64,000 nt of DNA, from assembly GCF_003729955.1 (NCBI RefSeq), contig NZ_RJTX01000001.1, positions 868,001-932,000 of the forward strand. Reading direction: 5' to 3'. Both the position numbers and the translations under genes were made by a program. Numbering within the stretch: the stretch's first letter is position 1; each line of letters starts with the position of its first letter. The stretch comes from Chryseobacterium daecheongense. GTDB taxonomy: Bacteria > Bacteroidota > Bacteroidia > Flavobacteriales > Weeksellaceae. Shown here piece by piece: positions 39,045-45,525 of this stretch. The notes beneath the pieces are model-generated. The model ran no database searches. It was not told the origin of the DNA and saw only the letters and a program-made list of their open reading frames with translations.

Positions 39045-40580
39045 TTGAAAAGCTATTCGATCATATTATTATTTATGATTCTCACTTCATGCTCTGTTCA
39101 GAAACACAATGAACAGAGAACTTCTCTTATTCCCCCTGAAAAGCTGAAAGAAGATGTGGATTACGCCTATCGTAAGCTCCAGAAGATGCATCCGCAACTA
39201 TACTGGTATATTTCAAAAGAGGAATTGGATCATAAGTTCGACAGCGTAAAAAATACCATCAACAGACCTCTTACTCCGCTTCAGTTTTATTTTACTTTGC
39301 AACCGGTGATTGCAAGCATCAGAGAAGGACATTTATCGCTCAGAATTCCTAGGAAGAGATTCAAAAAGAAAGATTTCAGATCGTTTCGGAATAAAAAAGG
39401 GATGTTCAGCCGTTTCGGATATTACGTTAAGGATGATCATCTGTATATTGTTGAAAATAAAGATTCTATACAAGGGATACCACCCGGAACAGAAATATTA
39501 TCCATTAATAACATTCCTGTTTCAGATTATCTTAAAAAGTACAGAAATCTGATCAGCAGTGATGGATTCAATACCACTTTTCAGCCCTATTTTCTGAAAG
39601 ACACTTTTTTTAATTTTTATACCGCAGAAAAGGGACTTGCCGATAGTGCCACCATTGAAACGATCTATAATAATGTAAAGAAGGTTTATACCTTAAAGAG
39701 AGAAACCAAGTCCGAAAATGATCTTGAAGTCGATAAAAAACAAAAGAAAAGAACTCTTGAGAAAAAAGTGAATGATTATATTGCTTTTAATAATTCCTAT
39801 AACAGAAATTTCAAATTTTTAGATAAAGACAGCAGTATTGCTTATATAAAAGTAAGAAGTTTTTCAAGAAGCTATTCTGACCAGTTTTATAAGGAAGCTT
39901 TTACCAAAATTAAACATGCAAAAGCCTCTTACCTCATCATAGACATCCGTAATAATTACGGCGGTTCTTTATATGAGATCAATAATCTGTATTCCTATCT
40001 TGCACCGGAACCTTTTGTATTGATAAAGCCTTCGGAAGTTACTTCTAAAATGACTCCCCTTAAGACCAATTATTTCAGAAAAAGCAATGTCCTGCAATAC
40101 GCTTTTAAAAGCCTGACTTATCCTACTTATGTTTTTGCCCAAACCTTCAGTACCTATAAAAAAGACGGCAAAGTTTTTTACAAAATGAAGGAAAACAAAT
40201 CCACAAAGCCTGATAAAAATGCTTTTAACGGGAAGGTATTCGTCCTGGTGAATGGTGGCAGCTTTTCAGCATCTTCCATTATTTCGTCAAAGCTTAAAAA
40301 TGATCAACGTGCCATTATTGTAGGTGAAGAAACAGGAGGTGCCAATGACGGCACTGTTGCCGGATTCTATTCTTATCAAAAGCTCCCTAATTCCAAAATT
40401 GATCTACCGATCGGGTTACTTTTGGTACAGCCTAATATCAATTTTACTAATACACAGCGAGGAGTCATTCCGGATGTGAATGTAACTGAGAGCATTCAGG
40501 ATATTATTGATAAAAAAGATCCTCAAATGGATTGGGTGATGAAAGAAATAGGAAGAGAGAAGGGAAACAGTATACAATAA
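39045..40580 (+). CDS. S41-family C-terminal-processing-like protease, predicted lipoprotein, TTG start
   Basis: The 511-residue protein has lipoprotein signal MKSYSIILLFMILTSC with lipobox LTSC, so it is probably attached to a cell membrane. A long N-terminal helical region with a PDZ-like GIPPGTEILSINNIPVSDYL (about 148-167) is followed by an S41 peptidase domain. The catalytic Ser is in VNGGSFSASSIISSKL, with GEETGGAND after it. The only start that supplies a full signal peptide is TTG at 39045; the next ATG (39075) would leave a stub before the lipobox Cys. Confidence 0.83.
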   Translation: MKSYSIILLFMILTSCSVQKHNEQRTSLIPPEKLKEDVDYAYRKLQKMHPQLYWYISKEELDHKFDSVKNTINRPLTPLQFYFTLQPVIASIREGHLSLRIPRKRFKKKDFRSFRNKKGMFSRFGYYVKDDHLYIVENKDSIQGIPPGTEILSINNIPVSDYLKKYRNLISSDGFNTTFQPYFLKDTFFNFYTAEKGLADSATIETIYNNVKKVYTLKRETKSENDLEVDKKQKKRTLEKKVNDYIAFNNSYNRNFKFLDKDSSIAYIKVRSFSRSYSDQFYKEAFTKIKHAKASYLIIDIRNNYGGSLYEINNLYSYLAPEPFVLIKPSEVTSKMTPLKTNYFRKSNVLQYAFKSLTYPTYVFAQTFSTYKKDGKVFYKMKENKSTKPDKNAFNGKVFVLVNGGSFSASSIISSKLKNDQRAIIVGEETGGANDGTVAGFYSYQKLPNSKIDLPIGLLLVQPNINFTNTQRGVIPDVNVTESIQDIIDKKDPQMDWVMKEIGREKGNSIQ

Positions 40581-40619
40581 AAAAGATTTCGGCGGGCTTT
40601 CAGCCCGCCGAAATCTTTT
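40581..40619. terminator. Perfect 18-bp bidirectional terminator hairpin
   Basis: The arms AAAAGATTTCGGCGGGCT (40581-40598) and AGCCCGCCGAAATCTTTT (40602-40619) are exactly complementary around a 3-base loop, with A and T runs outside. It fills the gap between the S41 protease stop and the stop of the converging membrane-protein gene. Confidence 0.9.
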
Positions 40620-41216
40620 TTATTTCTTTAATTGTTCTATAAGGTTTTCCACCTGTTTAATATATCTTCCGTAGAATTTCTCAAACCACCACCTGCCCAT
40701 GATAAACAGACCAAATAAAGCGACCAGAAGAGTTATAATGATGGTCAGTGCAGTCTGCAGATCTGTCAGGGGTTTCGCGTATGGAATAAATTCCAGGACA
40801 ATGATCAGCTCACAAACCAGAAAGGGAGCGAAAGCCACATAGAAAGAAAAGTAATACTGTTTATTTAAATTGAACTGATGTAATAATTCCACTAATCCTT
40901 CATATGTATTCAGGACCGGATTGCTCATATCTTTATACAGTTTAAAAAACTTACTGAAAAAGAATACGGTAACGAACACCATCGAGGCGACCAGGATGGC
41001 AATATAAAATTTAAATTTAAATGGGGCTTCACATAGAGCGATCAGTCCGAAAGCAAAGATAAAAATCCCGATGGTTGACCAAGCTTCCATTCGCATATTT
41101 TTACGCATTTTCTCAAGAGGAAGATGGATCTTATTTCTTTGCTCAATACTGATTTTTGGTGTTTCTTCAAGAGCATCATCTTCATTCCATGTATTTTTTA
41201 GTTCATCTATATTCAT
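40620..41216 (-). CDS. Membrane protein paired with an ECF sigma factor (anti-sigma candidate), copy B
   Basis: The 198-residue protein has a hydrophilic N-terminal ~45 residues (MNIDELKNTWNEDDALEETP; ISIEQRNKIHLPLEKMRKNM) predicted cytoplasmic, then four hydrophobic helices (about 45-62, 67-90, 120-142, 152-172). It ends WWFEKFYGRYIKQVENLIEQ. The N-terminal block and YGRYIKQV end are shared with the protein encoded after the sister sigma gene at 44.1-45.0 kb. Being encoded 20 bases after an ECF sigma gene and sharing this block, it is a probable membrane anti-sigma factor; no experimental family assignment is known to me. Confidence 0.8.
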   Translation of the reverse strand: MNIDELKNTWNEDDALEETPKISIEQRNKIHLPLEKMRKNMRMEAWSTIGIFIFAFGLIALCEAPFKFKFYIAILVASMVFVTVFFFSKFFKLYKDMSNPVLNTYEGLVELLHQFNLNKQYYFSFYVAFAPFLVCELIIVLEFIPYAKPLTDLQTALTIIITLLVALFGLFIMGRWWFEKFYGRYIKQVENLIEQLKK

Positions 41217-41236
41217 TGTTGCTGTTTTAAAAATTA

Positions 41237-41734
41237 CTATTTATTTGAGTGTAAGATATCTTTCAGTTTATTCTTGGCGCGGTTCATTTTCACCCTTACA
41301 TTTCCTTCAGAGATCCCCATCTGTTCTGCAATCTGCTTGCCCGAGAAATCTTCCAGATAGTAGAAAATAAAAGCTTTATCAATAGGATTCAGCTGATGGA
41401 TCGCATGATACATTGCAGACAGTTTTTCTTCTTTTTCAAGGTTATATTCCTCCTGTACTATTTTGTAATTGGAAAAATCTTCATTGGCAATGAAACTTCT
41501 CTTTTTTTCAGACTTCAGGAAAATAATAGCCGTATTCAGAGCAATCCTGTATAACCAGGTGGAAAATTCACTTTCTCCTCTGAAAGAAGGATATGCCTTC
41601 CAGACCTGATAGTTGATCTCCTGGAAGAGATCATCTCGGTCGTCTTTCTCATGCATATACATCTTAGAAATCTTGAAAATGATTCCTTTATGCTTTTCTA
41701 TTTTTTCTAAAAAATCCTGTTCTGATGAGGTCAT
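41237..41734 (-). CDS. ECF sigma factor, copy B of a paralogous pair
   Basis: The 165-residue sigma factor has region 2 (KISKMYMHEKDDRDDLFQEI; STWLYRIALNTAIIFLKSEK) and region 4 (LNPIDKAFIFYYLEDFSGKQ; IAEQMGISEGNVRVKMNRAK). It is obviously paralogous to the 45.0-45.5 kb gene: both share FLEKIEKHKG, IFKISKMYM and SEKKRSFI. The element TGTAAC-N15-CAACTAAC lies upstream, at 41753-41781, suggesting that the factor or its sister reads its own promoter. It is followed by its membrane partner after 20 bases. Confidence 0.92.
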   Translation of the reverse strand: MTSSEQDFLEKIEKHKGIIFKISKMYMHEKDDRDDLFQEINYQVWKAYPSFRGESEFSTWLYRIALNTAIIFLKSEKKRSFIANEDFSNYKIVQEEYNLEKEEKLSAMYHAIHQLNPIDKAFIFYYLEDFSGKQIAEQMGISEGNVRVKMNRAKNKLKDILHSNK

Positions 41735-41752
41735 GGTTGCTTACTCTATAGA

Positions 41753-41781
41753 GTTAGTTGGGCTTCAAAAAAAATGTTACA
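41753..41781 (-). promoter_or_regulatory. Shared ECF-type promoter motif, site 1 (sigma B)
   Basis: On the minus strand TGTAAC (41781 to 41776) is followed after exactly 15 bases by CAACTAAC (41760 to 41753). The near-identical arrangement at three other sites in this locus, and only there among the places searched by eye, marks it as the likely sigma recognition sequence. Confidence 0.75.
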
Positions 41782-41806
41782 GATTTTTTCAAAAAAATAA
41801 TAAAAA

Positions 41807-41834
41807 AAACCGGCAGAAAATTTCCTGCCGGTTT
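41807..41834 (-). terminator. Terminator of the M4 metalloprotease gene
   Basis: The stem AAACCGGCAG/CTGCCGGTTT (41807-41816 with 41825-41834) has an A/T-rich loop and a long T run on the minus strand. It lies 25 bases beyond the metalloprotease stop. Its arms resemble the hairpin at 43962-43985. Confidence 0.85.
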
Positions 41835-41858
41835 CATTGATGTCGGTACAATTCAATT

Positions 41859-43877
41859 TTACTCAACTACTATTTTTTTGGAAACAGTAGATCCCTCAGA
41901 ACTAATCTTTAATAAGTAAACTCCTTTTTGAACTCCGTCAATATTAATTTTATTTTTCCCTTTATTCAGTTTTTCTTCTTTTTTAACCAATCTTCCTGAA
42001 ACATCATATATTTCAAATACTGCATCATTTTTGGTGTTTTCTATAGTGAAAACACCTCCTTTCGCCGGATTAGGATAGATACTAAACTGATTCTCCAATT
42101 TATTCCCCACTTCATTAGTTGCTAACAACCCATTACCAAATCCAACAGCATACCATGCTTTTACGTTCTGAAGCTGCTCATTGCTGGAAGCTCCGTAAAG
42201 ATCTGTTACAGCTTGCTTTGACAAGTTATAAGCATCTACAAATTGGCTGTTTGCCGTAAGGTAATTCGCTAAAGTTCTATAGGCAATTTTTTCTGCCTTT
42301 TGAATAGTAATCCCTGTTACGCTAAAAGCATTCCCAAGATCATTGGTTCCCGAACCTCCCACAGAAAGCAGATAAAACCAGTAATTTCCTACCCCGCTGT
42401 TCGTATGCACTCCTCCAAAATCATTATTCTGTGTATAGGGACCAGCCGTATTCGCCCAATAGGTTCCCTGGTAAGTATCCGGTTGTTGTGAACCCAATGC
42501 TGCAGGTCCTGAATTAGGATTCGACATGCTTCTTAAATAGGTAAACCCTAAAGCAGGATTAGGGATTCCTTCTCCAATGGTCCAGTTCGGATTAATATTG
42601 GAATAAAATTCTATAGACGCTCCGAATATATCTGCAAATGATTCATTCAATGCACCGGATTCTCCCTGATAGGCCAAATTAGCCGTTCTGCTTACCATCA
42701 GGTGAGAATATTCGTGTCCCGCCACATCTAATGCCACAAATGGATTGAAAAATCCTGCCTGACCTTGATATTTTCCATTTCCATATACCATTGCCACAAC
42801 ACCTTGCGTATCAATTGCAGCAGCATTTACTCCGTTTTCTGGCTGTCCTGAACCAGCAAAATTAATATTATAGTAATTCCTGATAATAGATCCACCGTTA
42901 TCATAAGAATTTCTGTTATGTCTGTTTACATAATAATCATAAGCCATCTTCATAGCCCAGTGCACTTCAACAGCTGGTTTAGTTTCCGTTGCCGTAAAGT
43001 TAGCCGTAGCGTTGGTATATTCGGTGATAGTCCCCGTTAAGCCTCCTCCAGGCGTTCCATTACCGTCCCAACCAGTTCCGTTCATGGTGTGGATATTTCT
43101 TGCATTATCTTTTAAACGATAGCTTCCGTTGTATGAATCAACGGTAATTTGTTGATTTCCTTTATAATAAGTTGCACTTGTAGAGGATGCATCAACTAAA
43201 GGTCCTACTGTACTTACAGGAATATTATGATGATGAATCTTTTCTAATTTCTTTACAACTTGTTTTGTGGTATTATCAATATAATACATATAGCTTTTCA
43301 ATGCTTTTAATGAAAGCGCATTGATTTGGCTTGTCAAGTGCAGGCTTACTTCTCTTCCTGTAATAACTTTAGTAATTACCTGATCAAATTCATCGAAAGT
43401 AATATTTTGTGCTTTCATGTCAGCATTAACGATACTTTCCGCTTCTGTTCTGGTAAGAGGTTGTTTGATCGTCAGATTAATATTACTGCTTAATTCCCCA
43501 TTCACAAAAGTAAGTTTACCTTCTTTTTCATGAAGTAAAATCACCTCATCAGCTACTTTTATCCCTTTATAGAAATGCTGATACGTAGAATGTTTTATTC
43601 CCAATTCATCCGTTGAAGCCTTTACGAATGTATACGTATGATCACTGCTCGTTCCCAGCCATTCTCCTAAATGAGCAGATAAAAAATCAGCAGATACATC
43701 TCTCCCGCTAAAGTTAGCATGGAAGCTTCCTACAAAAGAATTAAAAGAAATCTTAGGCAGATCTTTAACAGCAATTTCTGTTCTGTTCTTATCCTGTGCC
43801 TGCAATACAGATAACGGAGCAAGGCCAACAGCAAAAACAAATGATAATGTTTTAACAATAGTAATGCTTTTCTTCAT
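41859..43877 (-). CDS. Secreted M4 (thermolysin-like) metalloprotease with T9SS sorting domain
   Basis: The 672-residue pre-pro-enzyme has a signal peptide (MKKSITIVKTLSFVFAVGLA, cut near LQA), an N-terminal FTP/PepSY-like propeptide (about 40-210) and the M4 catalytic domain. Zinc ligands are His388 and His392 of HEYSH with Glu389 as base, and Glu412 in GALNESFADIFG. GGVHTNSGVGNYWFYLLS carries the C-domain His. The C-terminal ~75 residues (FSIYPNPAKGGVF to KKIVVE) form a type-A T9SS sorting domain, so the protease is exported through the outer membrane. It has the ECF-type motif upstream. Confidence 0.95.
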   Translation of the reverse strand: MKKSITIVKTLSFVFAVGLAPLSVLQAQDKNRTEIAVKDLPKISFNSFVGSFHANFSGRDVSADFLSAHLGEWLGTSSDHTYTFVKASTDELGIKHSTYQHFYKGIKVADEVILLHEKEGKLTFVNGELSSNINLTIKQPLTRTEAESIVNADMKAQNITFDEFDQVITKVITGREVSLHLTSQINALSLKALKSYMYYIDNTTKQVVKKLEKIHHHNIPVSTVGPLVDASSTSATYYKGNQQITVDSYNGSYRLKDNARNIHTMNGTGWDGNGTPGGGLTGTITEYTNATANFTATETKPAVEVHWAMKMAYDYYVNRHNRNSYDNGGSIIRNYYNINFAGSGQPENGVNAAAIDTQGVVAMVYGNGKYQGQAGFFNPFVALDVAGHEYSHLMVSRTANLAYQGESGALNESFADIFGASIEFYSNINPNWTIGEGIPNPALGFTYLRSMSNPNSGPAALGSQQPDTYQGTYWANTAGPYTQNNDFGGVHTNSGVGNYWFYLLSVGGSGTNDLGNAFSVTGITIQKAEKIAYRTLANYLTANSQFVDAYNLSKQAVTDLYGASSNEQLQNVKAWYAVGFGNGLLATNEVGNKLENQFSIYPNPAKGGVFTIENTKNDAVFEIYDVSGRLVKKEEKLNKGKNKINIDGVQKGVYLLKISSEGSTVSKKIVVE

Positions 43878-43900
43878 AATATTTTGATTTATTCTCGACA

Positions 43901-43929
43901 GTTAGTAGAAAAAAAATAAATTTGTTACA
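43901..43929 (-). promoter_or_regulatory. Shared ECF-type promoter motif, site 2 (M4 protease)
   Basis: TGTAAC-N15-CTACTAAC occurs on the minus strand (TGTAAC 43929 to 43924; CTACTAAC 43908 to 43901). Its downstream edge is 24 bases before the protease ATG. Confidence 0.78.
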
Positions 43930-43961
43930 GTTATCTCATTCTTTTTTTGCTAAAACAAAAA

Positions 43962-44118
43962 ACCGACAGGAAATTTCCTATCGGTCATCATGATGTTTGT
44001 GTTTTTTTTTAATTTATTCAACTACTATCTTTAGAAATTAGAAATAGTATTTCCGTAATAGTTACCTATGCTGGACTTAATTTCTCACAGTTAGTAGGAA
44101 AAAATCAAAAATGTTACA
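43962..44118 (-). pseudogene. Deletion scar of a second T9SS-exported gene
   Basis: Reading leftward, this segment holds an intact shared promoter motif (44118 to 44090), about 50 non-coding bases, then only the last codons of a reading frame (44037 to 44014, encoding LKIVVE then stop), which match the KKIVVE end of the M4 protease. A hairpin follows (43962-43985, ACCGACAGG... against CCTATCGGT) resembling the M4 gene's terminator. There is no start codon or body, so an internal deletion appears to have removed almost the whole gene, leaving its promoter and 3' end. A former M4 paralogue is likely. Confidence 0.68.
44090..44118 (-). promoter_or_regulatory. Shared ECF-type promoter motif, site 3 (deletion scar)
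   Basis: TGTAAC (44118 to 44113) and CTACTAAC (44097 to 44090) are again 15 bases apart on the minus strand. Downstream lies only the truncated 3' end of a gene. Confidence 0.72.
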
Positions 44119-44143
44119 TATAAATTGTATTTTTTTTTAATGT

Positions 44144-44959
44144 CTAATTAAGTTTGTTCAACGCATTCAGAAGTGACTTCGCATCAATGAAATGCAATTT
44201 AATCCCTGCAATAATGATAATGCTAAAAACAGCTGTTAAAAAGACAATAATGAGGATGTAAACAGATATAAACCACAAAATGGTATTCAGAACATTTCCT
44301 TTAATTCCATATTTCGTCATAAAAAATTTTTGAGACCTCTCAAACCATGTTTTTTTGGTGGTAATTCCGGGTTTTACTTCTATTCCGTTCAATTCATCTA
44401 CCAAAAGCACCACTTCCTTAATATATTTCCCATACATATAATGGATCCAGTATTTGATAATAACATAGATAAGAAAGAGGGTGATTAGGAAGCTGAAACC
44501 AAATATGGCAAGGTTATATTCCATATCAAAGTGGAAATTGATCTGTATCAATGACAGTAATAAAGCGAGCGGAATATAGGAAATGTAATAGGAAATATAA
44601 ATTTCTTTCGATATTAGAAGCTGTGTTCTGAGGTTAAATAAATCATAATTGGTATTGATACTGCTTTTTTTGAGCATCTTATACAGTTTGAGAAACCTCG
44701 AATAAAAATAAACAATAAGAGCAAGTGTCAGAATTGTAACACATATCGATATTGTCCTGATATTCACGTCATTTATTGAAAACGGGGAACCAATGAGGAG
44801 CATGGGCAATGTAATAACCATCAGCCAAAATTCGGTTTCCATATTGATTTTAAGCATCTGTAGCGGTGAATGAATTTCATTCTGCTTTTCCAGCGATACT
44901 TCAGGAGGGGACTGCCTGTTGTCCTTATTCCAGAGTTCTTTAAAGTTTTCTAGTTCCAT
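44144..44959 (-). CDS. Membrane protein paired with an ECF sigma factor (anti-sigma candidate), copy A
   Basis: The 271-residue protein opens MELENFKELWNKDNRQSPPE, then VSLEKQNEIHSPLQMLKINM. This aligns with the N-terminal block of the copy-B protein (LKNTWN...ISIEQRNKIHLPLEKMRKNM). Four hydrophobic helices follow, then the YGKYIKEVVLLVDEL segment matching YGRYIKQVENLIEQ. It is longer than copy B, with an extra C-terminal part (about 200-271) containing another hydrophobic helix. It is encoded 16 bases after the sister sigma gene; anti-sigma function is inferred from position and conserved N terminus. Confidence 0.8.
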   Translation of the reverse strand: MELENFKELWNKDNRQSPPEVSLEKQNEIHSPLQMLKINMETEFWLMVITLPMLLIGSPFSINDVNIRTISICVTILTLALIVYFYSRFLKLYKMLKKSSINTNYDLFNLRTQLLISKEIYISYYISYIPLALLLSLIQINFHFDMEYNLAIFGFSFLITLFLIYVIIKYWIHYMYGKYIKEVVLLVDELNGIEVKPGITTKKTWFERSQKFFMTKYGIKGNVLNTILWFISVYILIIVFLTAVFSIIIIAGIKLHFIDAKSLLNALNKLN

Positions 44960-44975
44960 TCCTTAATGTTTTGGT

Positions 44976-45479
44976 TTAAATAGCCCTCTGTTTTTCAACG
45001 ATTTCTTTTAATTTAGCTTTAGCCCTATTGAGCTTTACCCTCGCATTCACTTCCGTAATACCCAGCTGAAGAGCTATTTCCTTACCCGGAAAGTCTTCCA
45101 GAAAGAAAAAAATAAGTGCTTTATCAATGGGACTGAGTTGTTGAATGGCTTCATACATCATCTTCATATTCTTATCATCTGTGTCGTTATAAGATTCCTG
45201 ATGAACCGTAATATTTTCTATATTTTGATTTTGTATAAAACTACGTTTTTTTTCGCTTCGGAGAAATACGATGGCTGTGTTGAGTGCTGTTCTGTAAAGC
45301 CAAGTTGAGAAATCGCTCTTCCTTTGGAAATCGGCGTATGATTTCCAGGCCTGGTAAATGATCTCCTGGTAGAGATCATTCTGATCGTCCTGATTATCCA
45401 TATACATCTTAGAAATCTTGAAAATCACGCCCTTATGCTTTTCAATTTTCTCCAAGAATTCTTTTTCCTGTAAAGACAT
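44976..45479 (-). CDS. ECF sigma factor, copy A of a paralogous pair
   Basis: The 167-residue sigma-70 family protein has regions 2 (KISKMYMDNQDDQNDLYQEI; STWLYRTALNTAIVFLRSEK) and 4 (LSPIDKALIFFFLEDFPGKE; IALQLGITEVNARVKLNRAK). It is more similar to copy B than to the ECF factor at 17.1-17.7 kb. The promoter motif TGTAAC-N15-CTACTAAC lies at 45497-45525. It is 16 bases from its membrane partner. Recognition of the same promoter by both copies is a prediction from motif sharing. Confidence 0.92.
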   Translation of the reverse strand: MSLQEKEFLEKIEKHKGVIFKISKMYMDNQDDQNDLYQEIIYQAWKSYADFQRKSDFSTWLYRTALNTAIVFLRSEKKRSFIQNQNIENITVHQESYNDTDDKNMKMMYEAIQQLSPIDKALIFFFLEDFPGKEIALQLGITEVNARVKLNRAKAKLKEIVEKQRAI

Positions 45480-45496
45480 GGCTTGTAGTCTTTACA

Positions 45497-45525
45497 GTTA
45501 GTAGCATTTTTTTACAAATGTTACA
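45497..45525 (-). promoter_or_regulatory. Shared ECF-type promoter motif, site 4 (sigma A)
   Basis: TGTAAC (45525 to 45520) and CTACTAAC (45504 to 45497), 15 bases apart on the minus strand, 18 bases before the sigma A ATG. Confidence 0.78.

Follow-up and report, generated by a model that had tools for sequence, protein, structure and literature searches.

Two ECF sigma factor genes flank a T9SS metalloprotease gene

The 64,000-nucleotide stretch of Chryseobacterium daecheongense DNA analysed here, hereafter the window, corresponds to C2:868001-932000 of a 3.83-Mb genome in seven contigs. It contains a module in which two genes for extracytoplasmic function (ECF) sigma factors, each followed by a gene for a membrane protein, bracket a short non-coding unit and a gene for an M4 metalloprotease with a type IX secretion system (T9SS) sorting domain. 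All are minus-strand features, arranged as sigma-2, TM2, short unit, M4 protease, sigma-1 and TM1. Four exact copies of the bipartite motif TGTAAC-N15-C(T/A)ACTAAC are found 5' of sigma-2, the short unit, the M4 gene and sigma-1. We propose that the two sigma/membrane-protein pairs, the protease and the short unit probably form a compact ECF regulon for secreted proteolysis. The features, with window coordinates, are:

45497..45525, minus strand: sigma-2 promoter motif, TGTAAC-N15-CTACTAAC, 17 nt 5' of the ATG
44976..45479, minus strand: sigma-2, ECF sigma factor of 167 aa, identified by domain matches
44144..44959, minus strand: TM2, membrane protein of 271 aa, candidate anti-sigma factor, no domain match
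44090..44118, minus strand: short-unit promoter motif, TGTAAC-N15-CTACTAAC, exact
43957..44083, minus strand: short non-coding unit, about 127 nt as drawn, relic of an M4-gene 3' end and possible small RNA
43961..43986, minus strand: predicted short-unit terminator hairpin
43901..43929, minus strand: M4 protease promoter motif, 23 nt 5' of the ATG
41859..43877, minus strand: M4 metalloprotease of 672 aa, with FTP propeptide and T9SS sorting domain, identified by domain matches
41806..41835, minus strand: predicted M4-gene terminator hairpin
41753..41781, minus strand: sigma-1 promoter motif, TGTAAC-N15-CAACTAAC, 18 nt 5' of the ATG
41237..41734, minus strand: sigma-1, ECF sigma factor of 165 aa, identified by domain matches
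40620..41216, minus strand: TM1, membrane protein of 198 aa, candidate anti-sigma factor

The first-pass annotation had described two paralogous sigma genes, paralogous membrane-protein genes within 20 bases of them and, between the pairs, an M4 metalloprotease with a T9SS sorting domain, all of which is borne out. Sigma-1 and sigma-2 both match Sigma70_r2 and Sigma70_r4_2 above the Pfam cut-offs, as well as TIGR02937 (sigma70-ECF), and are 61% identical; the best named match of sigma-2 is from Chryseobacterium defluvii (95%). The gaps to the membrane-protein genes are 20 bases (sigma-1/TM1) and 16 bases (sigma-2/TM2), and TM1 and TM2 share 27% identity over about 200 aa. The protease contains FTP, M4, M4_C and Por_Secre_tail domains (Pfam), with TIGR04183 above its NCBIfam cut-off, and its translation carries the zinc motif HEYSH, an HExxH sequence, together with the C-terminal sorting domain.

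Exact 15-spaced copies of the motif are confined to the module

A spacer of exactly 15 bases had been reported at all four sites, and each copy is indeed exact with that spacing. Allowing two mismatches adds no further match in the window (100 shuffles: mean 0.42, largest 3). The genome-wide search suggested by the first-pass annotation was run with exact matching and spacers of 13-17 and gave five matches (none for the reversed control), comprising the four window sites and one site with spacer 17, so that the only exact 15-spaced copies in the genome are those in the module. With two mismatches the whole genome gave 30 matches against 84 for the reversed control; only near-exact matches are therefore meaningful in this genome, and a wider regulon cannot be derived from weaker ones. 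The exact N17 site (C4:495925) and a one-mismatch site (C3:23320), where the next open reading frame (ORF) starts 168 and 80 nt away respectively, were treated as chance matches. This genome has one full-length M4 gene. The motif was not found in the 90 nt before the printed starts of its four M43 genes, and the M36 catalytic domain was not matched in it, only tail matches; PNGase F and M12B genes were not searched for there.

The motif and its spacing are conserved in relatives

Genome contigs were scanned with sigma-2 and the best 80 of 180 related loci were compared, allowing spacers of 12-18 and a relaxed -10 part. The motif is present 5' of sigma-1 in 65 of 66 cases, of the M4 gene in 17 of 18, and of sigma-2-type genes (those matching sigma-2 best) in 14 of 57, the spacer always being 15; 126 of 24,000 random 88-nt windows of these loci match, real sites included. 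The comparison of related genomes envisaged in the first-pass annotation thus finds both motif and exact spacing retained. At the sigma-1 promoters of relatives, A often replaces the leading C of C(T/A)ACTAAC. Both window sigma genes and nearly all sigma-1 genes therefore have the bipartite motif 5' of their own operon, and this comparison supports reading the motif as the sigma genes' own promoter code.

Many Chryseobacterium loci share the order ALDH, sigma-2, TM2, zero to two M4 genes and/or a short unit, sigma-1, TM1, S41 peptidase. The environmental strain C. angstadtii KM (L036), for instance, carries the two sigma pairs together with a unit and an M4 gene. Five loci (L080 and L082-L085) have a simpler module of sigma-2, TM2 and M4, with the motif 5' of the sigma and M4 genes. 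In C. defluvii DSM 14219 (L032:13728-14110) sigma-1 appears as two overlapping partial matches, with no TM1 match before the S41 gene; the sigma-1/TM1 pair looks broken there, though the unit, M4 and sigma-2 sites are kept. In the window, the S41 peptidase gene (39045-40580) is convergent to the module, and many relatives also have it next to theirs; its region matches the GFO_1087 (S41) and GFO_1088 (sigma) families weakly, below the cut-off of each. A likely terminator for both convergent genes, a strong hairpin accompanied by runs of T, lies at 40577-40623, between the S41 gene and TM1.

The same code precedes secreted protease genes across the genus

Scanning 148 genus genomes with the motif pattern and spacers of 14-16 gave 213 matches in 109 genomes, against 47 matches in 36 genomes for the reversed pattern. 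Motif loci rarely fall inside a long ORF (1 of 29, against 22 of 30 control loci) and frequently have an ORF start at most 75 nt away (19 of 29, against 6 of 30). Outside the present locus, 39 sites were hand-picked among the matches listed, 19 with spacer 15 and 20 with spacer 16; ten of the encoded proteins were scanned against Pfam and the rest assigned by similar N- and C-termini. At spacer 15, 17 of the 19 sites lie 20-44 nt 5' of an M36, M4 or M12B metalloprotease gene with a T9SS tail, and the other two are followed by an alpha-L-fucosidase gene at 162 nt and a gene for an unknown protein at 193 nt. At spacer 16, 15 of the 20 precede M36-like, M43-like or PNGase F-like genes; the remaining five comprise two 96-aa ORFs, one DUF3108 protein and two sites without an ORF. 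The two 96-aa ORFs (L164 and L176) start similarly to the PNGase F-like genes and may be shortened PNGase genes, while the two sites followed by no ORF of at least 80 aa (L165 and L166) are possibly further leftovers of lost target genes. All PNGase F-like genes fetched have spacer 16. This comparative evidence supports a protease switch and would widen it to a genus-level regulon.

The short unit derives from an M4 gene and recurs in relatives

The first-pass annotation interpreted the short unit as a remnant, left by a second T9SS gene. Alignment of the window unit to the end of the M4 coding sequence, the stop codon and the 3' untranslated region (UTR) spans 84 columns with a score of 37, above all of 500 shuffles (largest 29); alignment to the C. 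defluvii M4 end is stronger still (score 46, largest shuffle 34). A model built from the units scores 58 bits on the window's M4 3' end, the next match in that genome scoring 37, and there is near identity between the L064 unit and the 3' UTR of the L065 M4 gene. When the L032 and L064 units were compared with the window and L032 M4 ends, between 9 and 413 of 500 shuffles scored at least as high, which is not significant; the case for M4 ancestry is therefore made by the window unit and the L064/L065 pair. Judged by these alignments, the window's unit is a true relic of an M4 3' end, and an origin as a new RNA without gene ancestry is rejected for it. The word remnant is nevertheless incomplete, as the unit has its own promoter motif and terminator and conserved non-coding counterparts in relatives. 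The third-best match of the unit model in the window's genome (37 bits, G000:C5:148803-148890) is situated close behind the catalytic part of a same-strand M43 gene (C5:149707-150180), perhaps reflecting only a similar terminator.

A unit with its own promoter motif and terminator is present at 38 of the 80 loci, with spacer 15 in 37 and spacer 16 in L056, and no long ORF of its own was seen in the 11 units translated; as drawn, the units measure roughly 90-250 nt. Sixteen of the 54 loci L032-L085 are without such a unit: the M4 gene directly follows TM2 at ten, our own reading finds decayed traces at four (L058, L060, L063 and L076), and nothing of a unit is present at two (L055 and L062). 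The four loci with decayed traces have an extra small ORF (starting MDEIKNQ) between TM2 and sigma-1, where the unit decayed. The unit model matches 93 of the 148 genomes at E 0.01 and 54 at 1e-6 or better, counts that include M4 3' ends and the species used to build the model.

Two functional interpretations of the unit compete. The better placed, to which we give an even chance, is that it is only a scar: M4 copies have been gained and lost, and deletion left a promoter and terminator behind with a functionless transcript. The M4 ancestry just described fits this account, as do the variation in M4 number between loci, the decayed or missing units and a covariation signal found mostly in the terminator. 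The fold of the window unit (z -3.2) likewise owes much of its signal to the terminator. Consensus folds recover the terminator and, in one group, one further helix with almost no double changes; a search of Rfam gave 10 matches at E up to 5, none at the gathering score. Retention of the promoter argues the other way, with 36 of the 43 loci where the sigma-2 motif has gone keeping that of the unit. So does sequence conservation. Among 14 species of one group, mean pairwise identity falls from 0.91 in the promoter (0.83 in its spacer) through 0.69 in the transcript to 0.45 in the preceding gap; among 13 species of another, the values are 0.89 (0.79), 0.58 and 0.38, a contrast that is overstated because the loci were chosen for having the motif and gaps were counted as differences. 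Moreover, the box AATTATTTCG (at most one mismatch) occurs in 32 of 39 units and in none of the 18 M4 gene ends, against 132 of 10,000 background windows, and a second box, AAAACACACAATGA (at most two mismatches), in 34 of 39 units, 2 of 18 M4 gene ends and 59 of 10,000 background windows. Both boxes are absent from the window and L032 units, which again fits a scar.

The other interpretation, which we hold as a tentative second choice, gives the unit a function as a small RNA damping or tuning the output of protease, by analogy with the sigma-E-dependent small RNAs of Escherichia coli. The promoter, the terminator and the lack of a long ORF suit such a role, as do the two boxes kept across many species and the persistence of the unit at loci without sigma-1; the weak covariation outside the terminator and the missing boxes in the window unit count against it. 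On this hypothesis, which we regard as possible rather than probable, a protease gene lost its reading frame and kept its ECF promoter, 3' end and terminator, and the leftover in many Chryseobacterium species would now be a small regulatory RNA, transcribed with the same sigma factors and feeding back on protease production. If functional, the unit would represent a regulatory RNA born from a dead gene within its own regulon, and species that kept or lost the M4 gene would provide natural comparisons. Read-through from the unit into sigma-1 is unlikely to be its main role, because six loci (L042, L051, L053, L059, L061 and L081) keep the unit without sigma-1.

TM1 and TM2 are candidate anti-sigma factors

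TM1 contains roughly four hydrophobic stretches; a further one is present in TM2. The first-pass annotation noted a hydrophilic N-terminal block shared by both, and this is well conserved, with K7, W10, P20, P33, L34, M41 and E44 invariant in 42 sequences. Its description of YG(R/K)YIK(Q/E)V as the tail of both proteins applies to the 198-aa protein, where the sequence is near the C-terminus; in the 271-aa protein it occupies residues 176-183 and is followed by a further segment with the extra hydrophobic stretch. The partner family has matches in 56 of 120 genomes and 16 of 33 genera of the bacterial family. At the 30 best-scoring partner loci, the window's own included, an ECF gene is directly upstream in every case and the motif, always with spacer 15, in 29; at the exception, L207, the sigma match begins inside the gene and the wrong upstream region was examined.

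From their position and topology, we infer that TM1 and TM2 act as anti-sigma factors. A different role under sigma control, such as a sensor or a part of a transport system, appears unlikely. It would accommodate the several hydrophobic stretches, and searches of Pfam and NCBIfam found no anti-sigma or other known domain in either protein; the 120 homologues listed have no precomputed Pfam domain and are mostly named hypothetical protein. An AlphaFold model of TM1 with mean pLDDT 80 (residues 11-19 being weak) found no counterpart in the PDB at E 0.001. Such a role is harder to square with the position of all 30 fetched partner genes behind an ECF gene and with the seven invariant residues of the N-terminal block.

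Sigma-2 is the probable reader of the motif where sigma-1 is lacking

In a tree of 124 sigma proteins, 44 sigma-1 sequences form one supported clade and 50 sigma-2 sequences another, the deepest forks being weak. In the six genomes whose loci lack sigma-1, the best match to sigma-1 (62-66% identical) is the sigma-2 gene and the next is 45-48% identical; C. indologenes AA5, run alongside them, has a sigma-1 orthologue at 83%. All six genomes nevertheless keep the unit's motif, and the three with M4 genes keep the M4 motif; the motif also occurs 5' of an M36-like gene in one and of M43-like genes in three. Since sites at this locus persist without a sigma-1 orthologue, sigma-2 is probably their reader, and the simplest one in these genomes. 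More generally, we infer from these patterns that sigma-1 and sigma-2 recognise the motif.

Self-activation would fit both window sigma genes. In many relatives only sigma-1 looks autoregulated, because 43 of the 57 sigma-2-type genes have no motif; in species with a motif-less sigma-2, basal sigma-2 might ignite an autoregulated sigma-1. The self-amplifying protease switch put forward in the first-pass annotation thus agrees with the motifs at the sigma genes and at protease genes of the genus, and its self-amplifying part seems not to extend to most sigma-2-type genes.

Several observations weigh against the proposed regulon. The sigma-2 motif is absent at 43 of the 54 loci L032-L085, and TM1 and TM2 resemble no known anti-sigma factor in domain or structure searches. 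A loose pattern applied to the six sigma-1-less genomes gave 14 matches against 10 for the reversed control, so the argument for sigma-2 as reader depends on the positions of the sites. The spacer before M36-like genes varies with the species, being 15 within L141-L158 and 16 within L161-L180, so that spacing may be less strict than this locus suggests or another sigma factor may be involved; either the sigma factor tolerates both spacers, or sigma factor and spacer changed together. Finally, further ECF paralogues of 43-48% identity are present in the genomes examined.

These paralogues raise the possibility that another ECF factor reads the motif, the sigma-1 and sigma-2 genes being only its targets. 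The third-ranking paralogues (45-48%) occur in all six sigma-1-less genomes, and the parts of the Porphyromonas gingivalis and Flavobacterium psychrophilum papers drawn on here tie T9SS genes to other ECF factors (PMC4800418; PMC9723704). We nevertheless consider this improbable, given that the motif travels with this sigma factor and its membrane partner family-wide, at 29 of 30 fetched partner loci and nearly every sigma-1 gene. A chance or compositional origin of the motif, to which the AT-rich genome and T-rich spacers might lend some colour, is rejected as exceedingly improbable by the window shuffles, the reversed controls in genome and genus, the ORF positions and the related-locus counts.

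A model for the regulon

We therefore return to the compact regulon as the preferred reading. Two paralogous ECF sigma factors are proposed to recognise TGTAAC-N15-C(T/A)ACTAAC, each probably being kept inactive by its co-encoded membrane protein. Once released, the sigma factors would raise expression of both sigma operons, giving positive feedback and likely cross-activation, and would induce the M4 protease exported by the T9SS. The code may have a like role in relatives, where it precedes genes for M36, M43 and M12B proteases and PNGase F. The fourth promoter would give rise to a short transcript, ended by the terminator, that is what remains of an M4 gene copy; in many relatives a similar element persists that has no long reading frame and may function as a regulatory RNA.

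Comparison with known systems

The listings of open-access literature searched contained no report of this motif or regulon, and for Chryseobacterium they named no regulator of PNGase F or of proteases that are T9SS cargo. A promoter code with exact spacing, the likely sigma factors, an unannotated family of candidate anti-sigma factors and a list of targets make the proposal directly testable.

The usual membrane anti-sigma factor has one membrane helix and a known anti-sigma domain. The arrangement here resembles classical ECF/membrane anti-sigma pairs in its two-gene operon, its own promoter motif and its neighbouring targets, and differs in the four or five hydrophobic stretches, the absence of a known domain and the presence of two paralogous pairs on one code. 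E. coli sigma-E is an autoregulated, envelope-linked ECF factor that also drives the small RNAs MicA, RybB and MicL, and its dependent small RNAs act on outer-membrane proteins. The window system would likewise combine an ECF sigma factor with a small-RNA promoter, its candidate RNA unit being derived from a protease gene.

In the passages of the SigP study used here, P. gingivalis SigP is an ECF factor acting on genes for T9SS components and a binding partner of the response regulator PorX; the motif suggested for it is C(T)AAA... (PMC4800418). Like the present system, PorXY-SigP ties a Bacteroidota ECF sigma factor to type IX secretion and protease output. SigP targets T9SS components, whereas the sites described here lie 5' of cargo protease genes and are accompanied by membrane partners and the TGTAAC-N15-ACTAAC code; anti-sigma is not a term used in that paper (PMC4800418). 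The portion of the F. psychrophilum SM6 study consulted describes an ECF-type promoter class that includes T9SS components, an ECF/anti-sigma operon and the putative regulatory RNA Rfp11 (PMC9723704). Both cases thus present an ECF promoter class in a flavobacterium with a T9SS link and a putative regulatory RNA. They differ in that the SM6 class has a CGT box in the -10 region and, among the targets given in that portion, T9SS component genes and others, whereas the motif described here has ACTAAC (PMC9723704).

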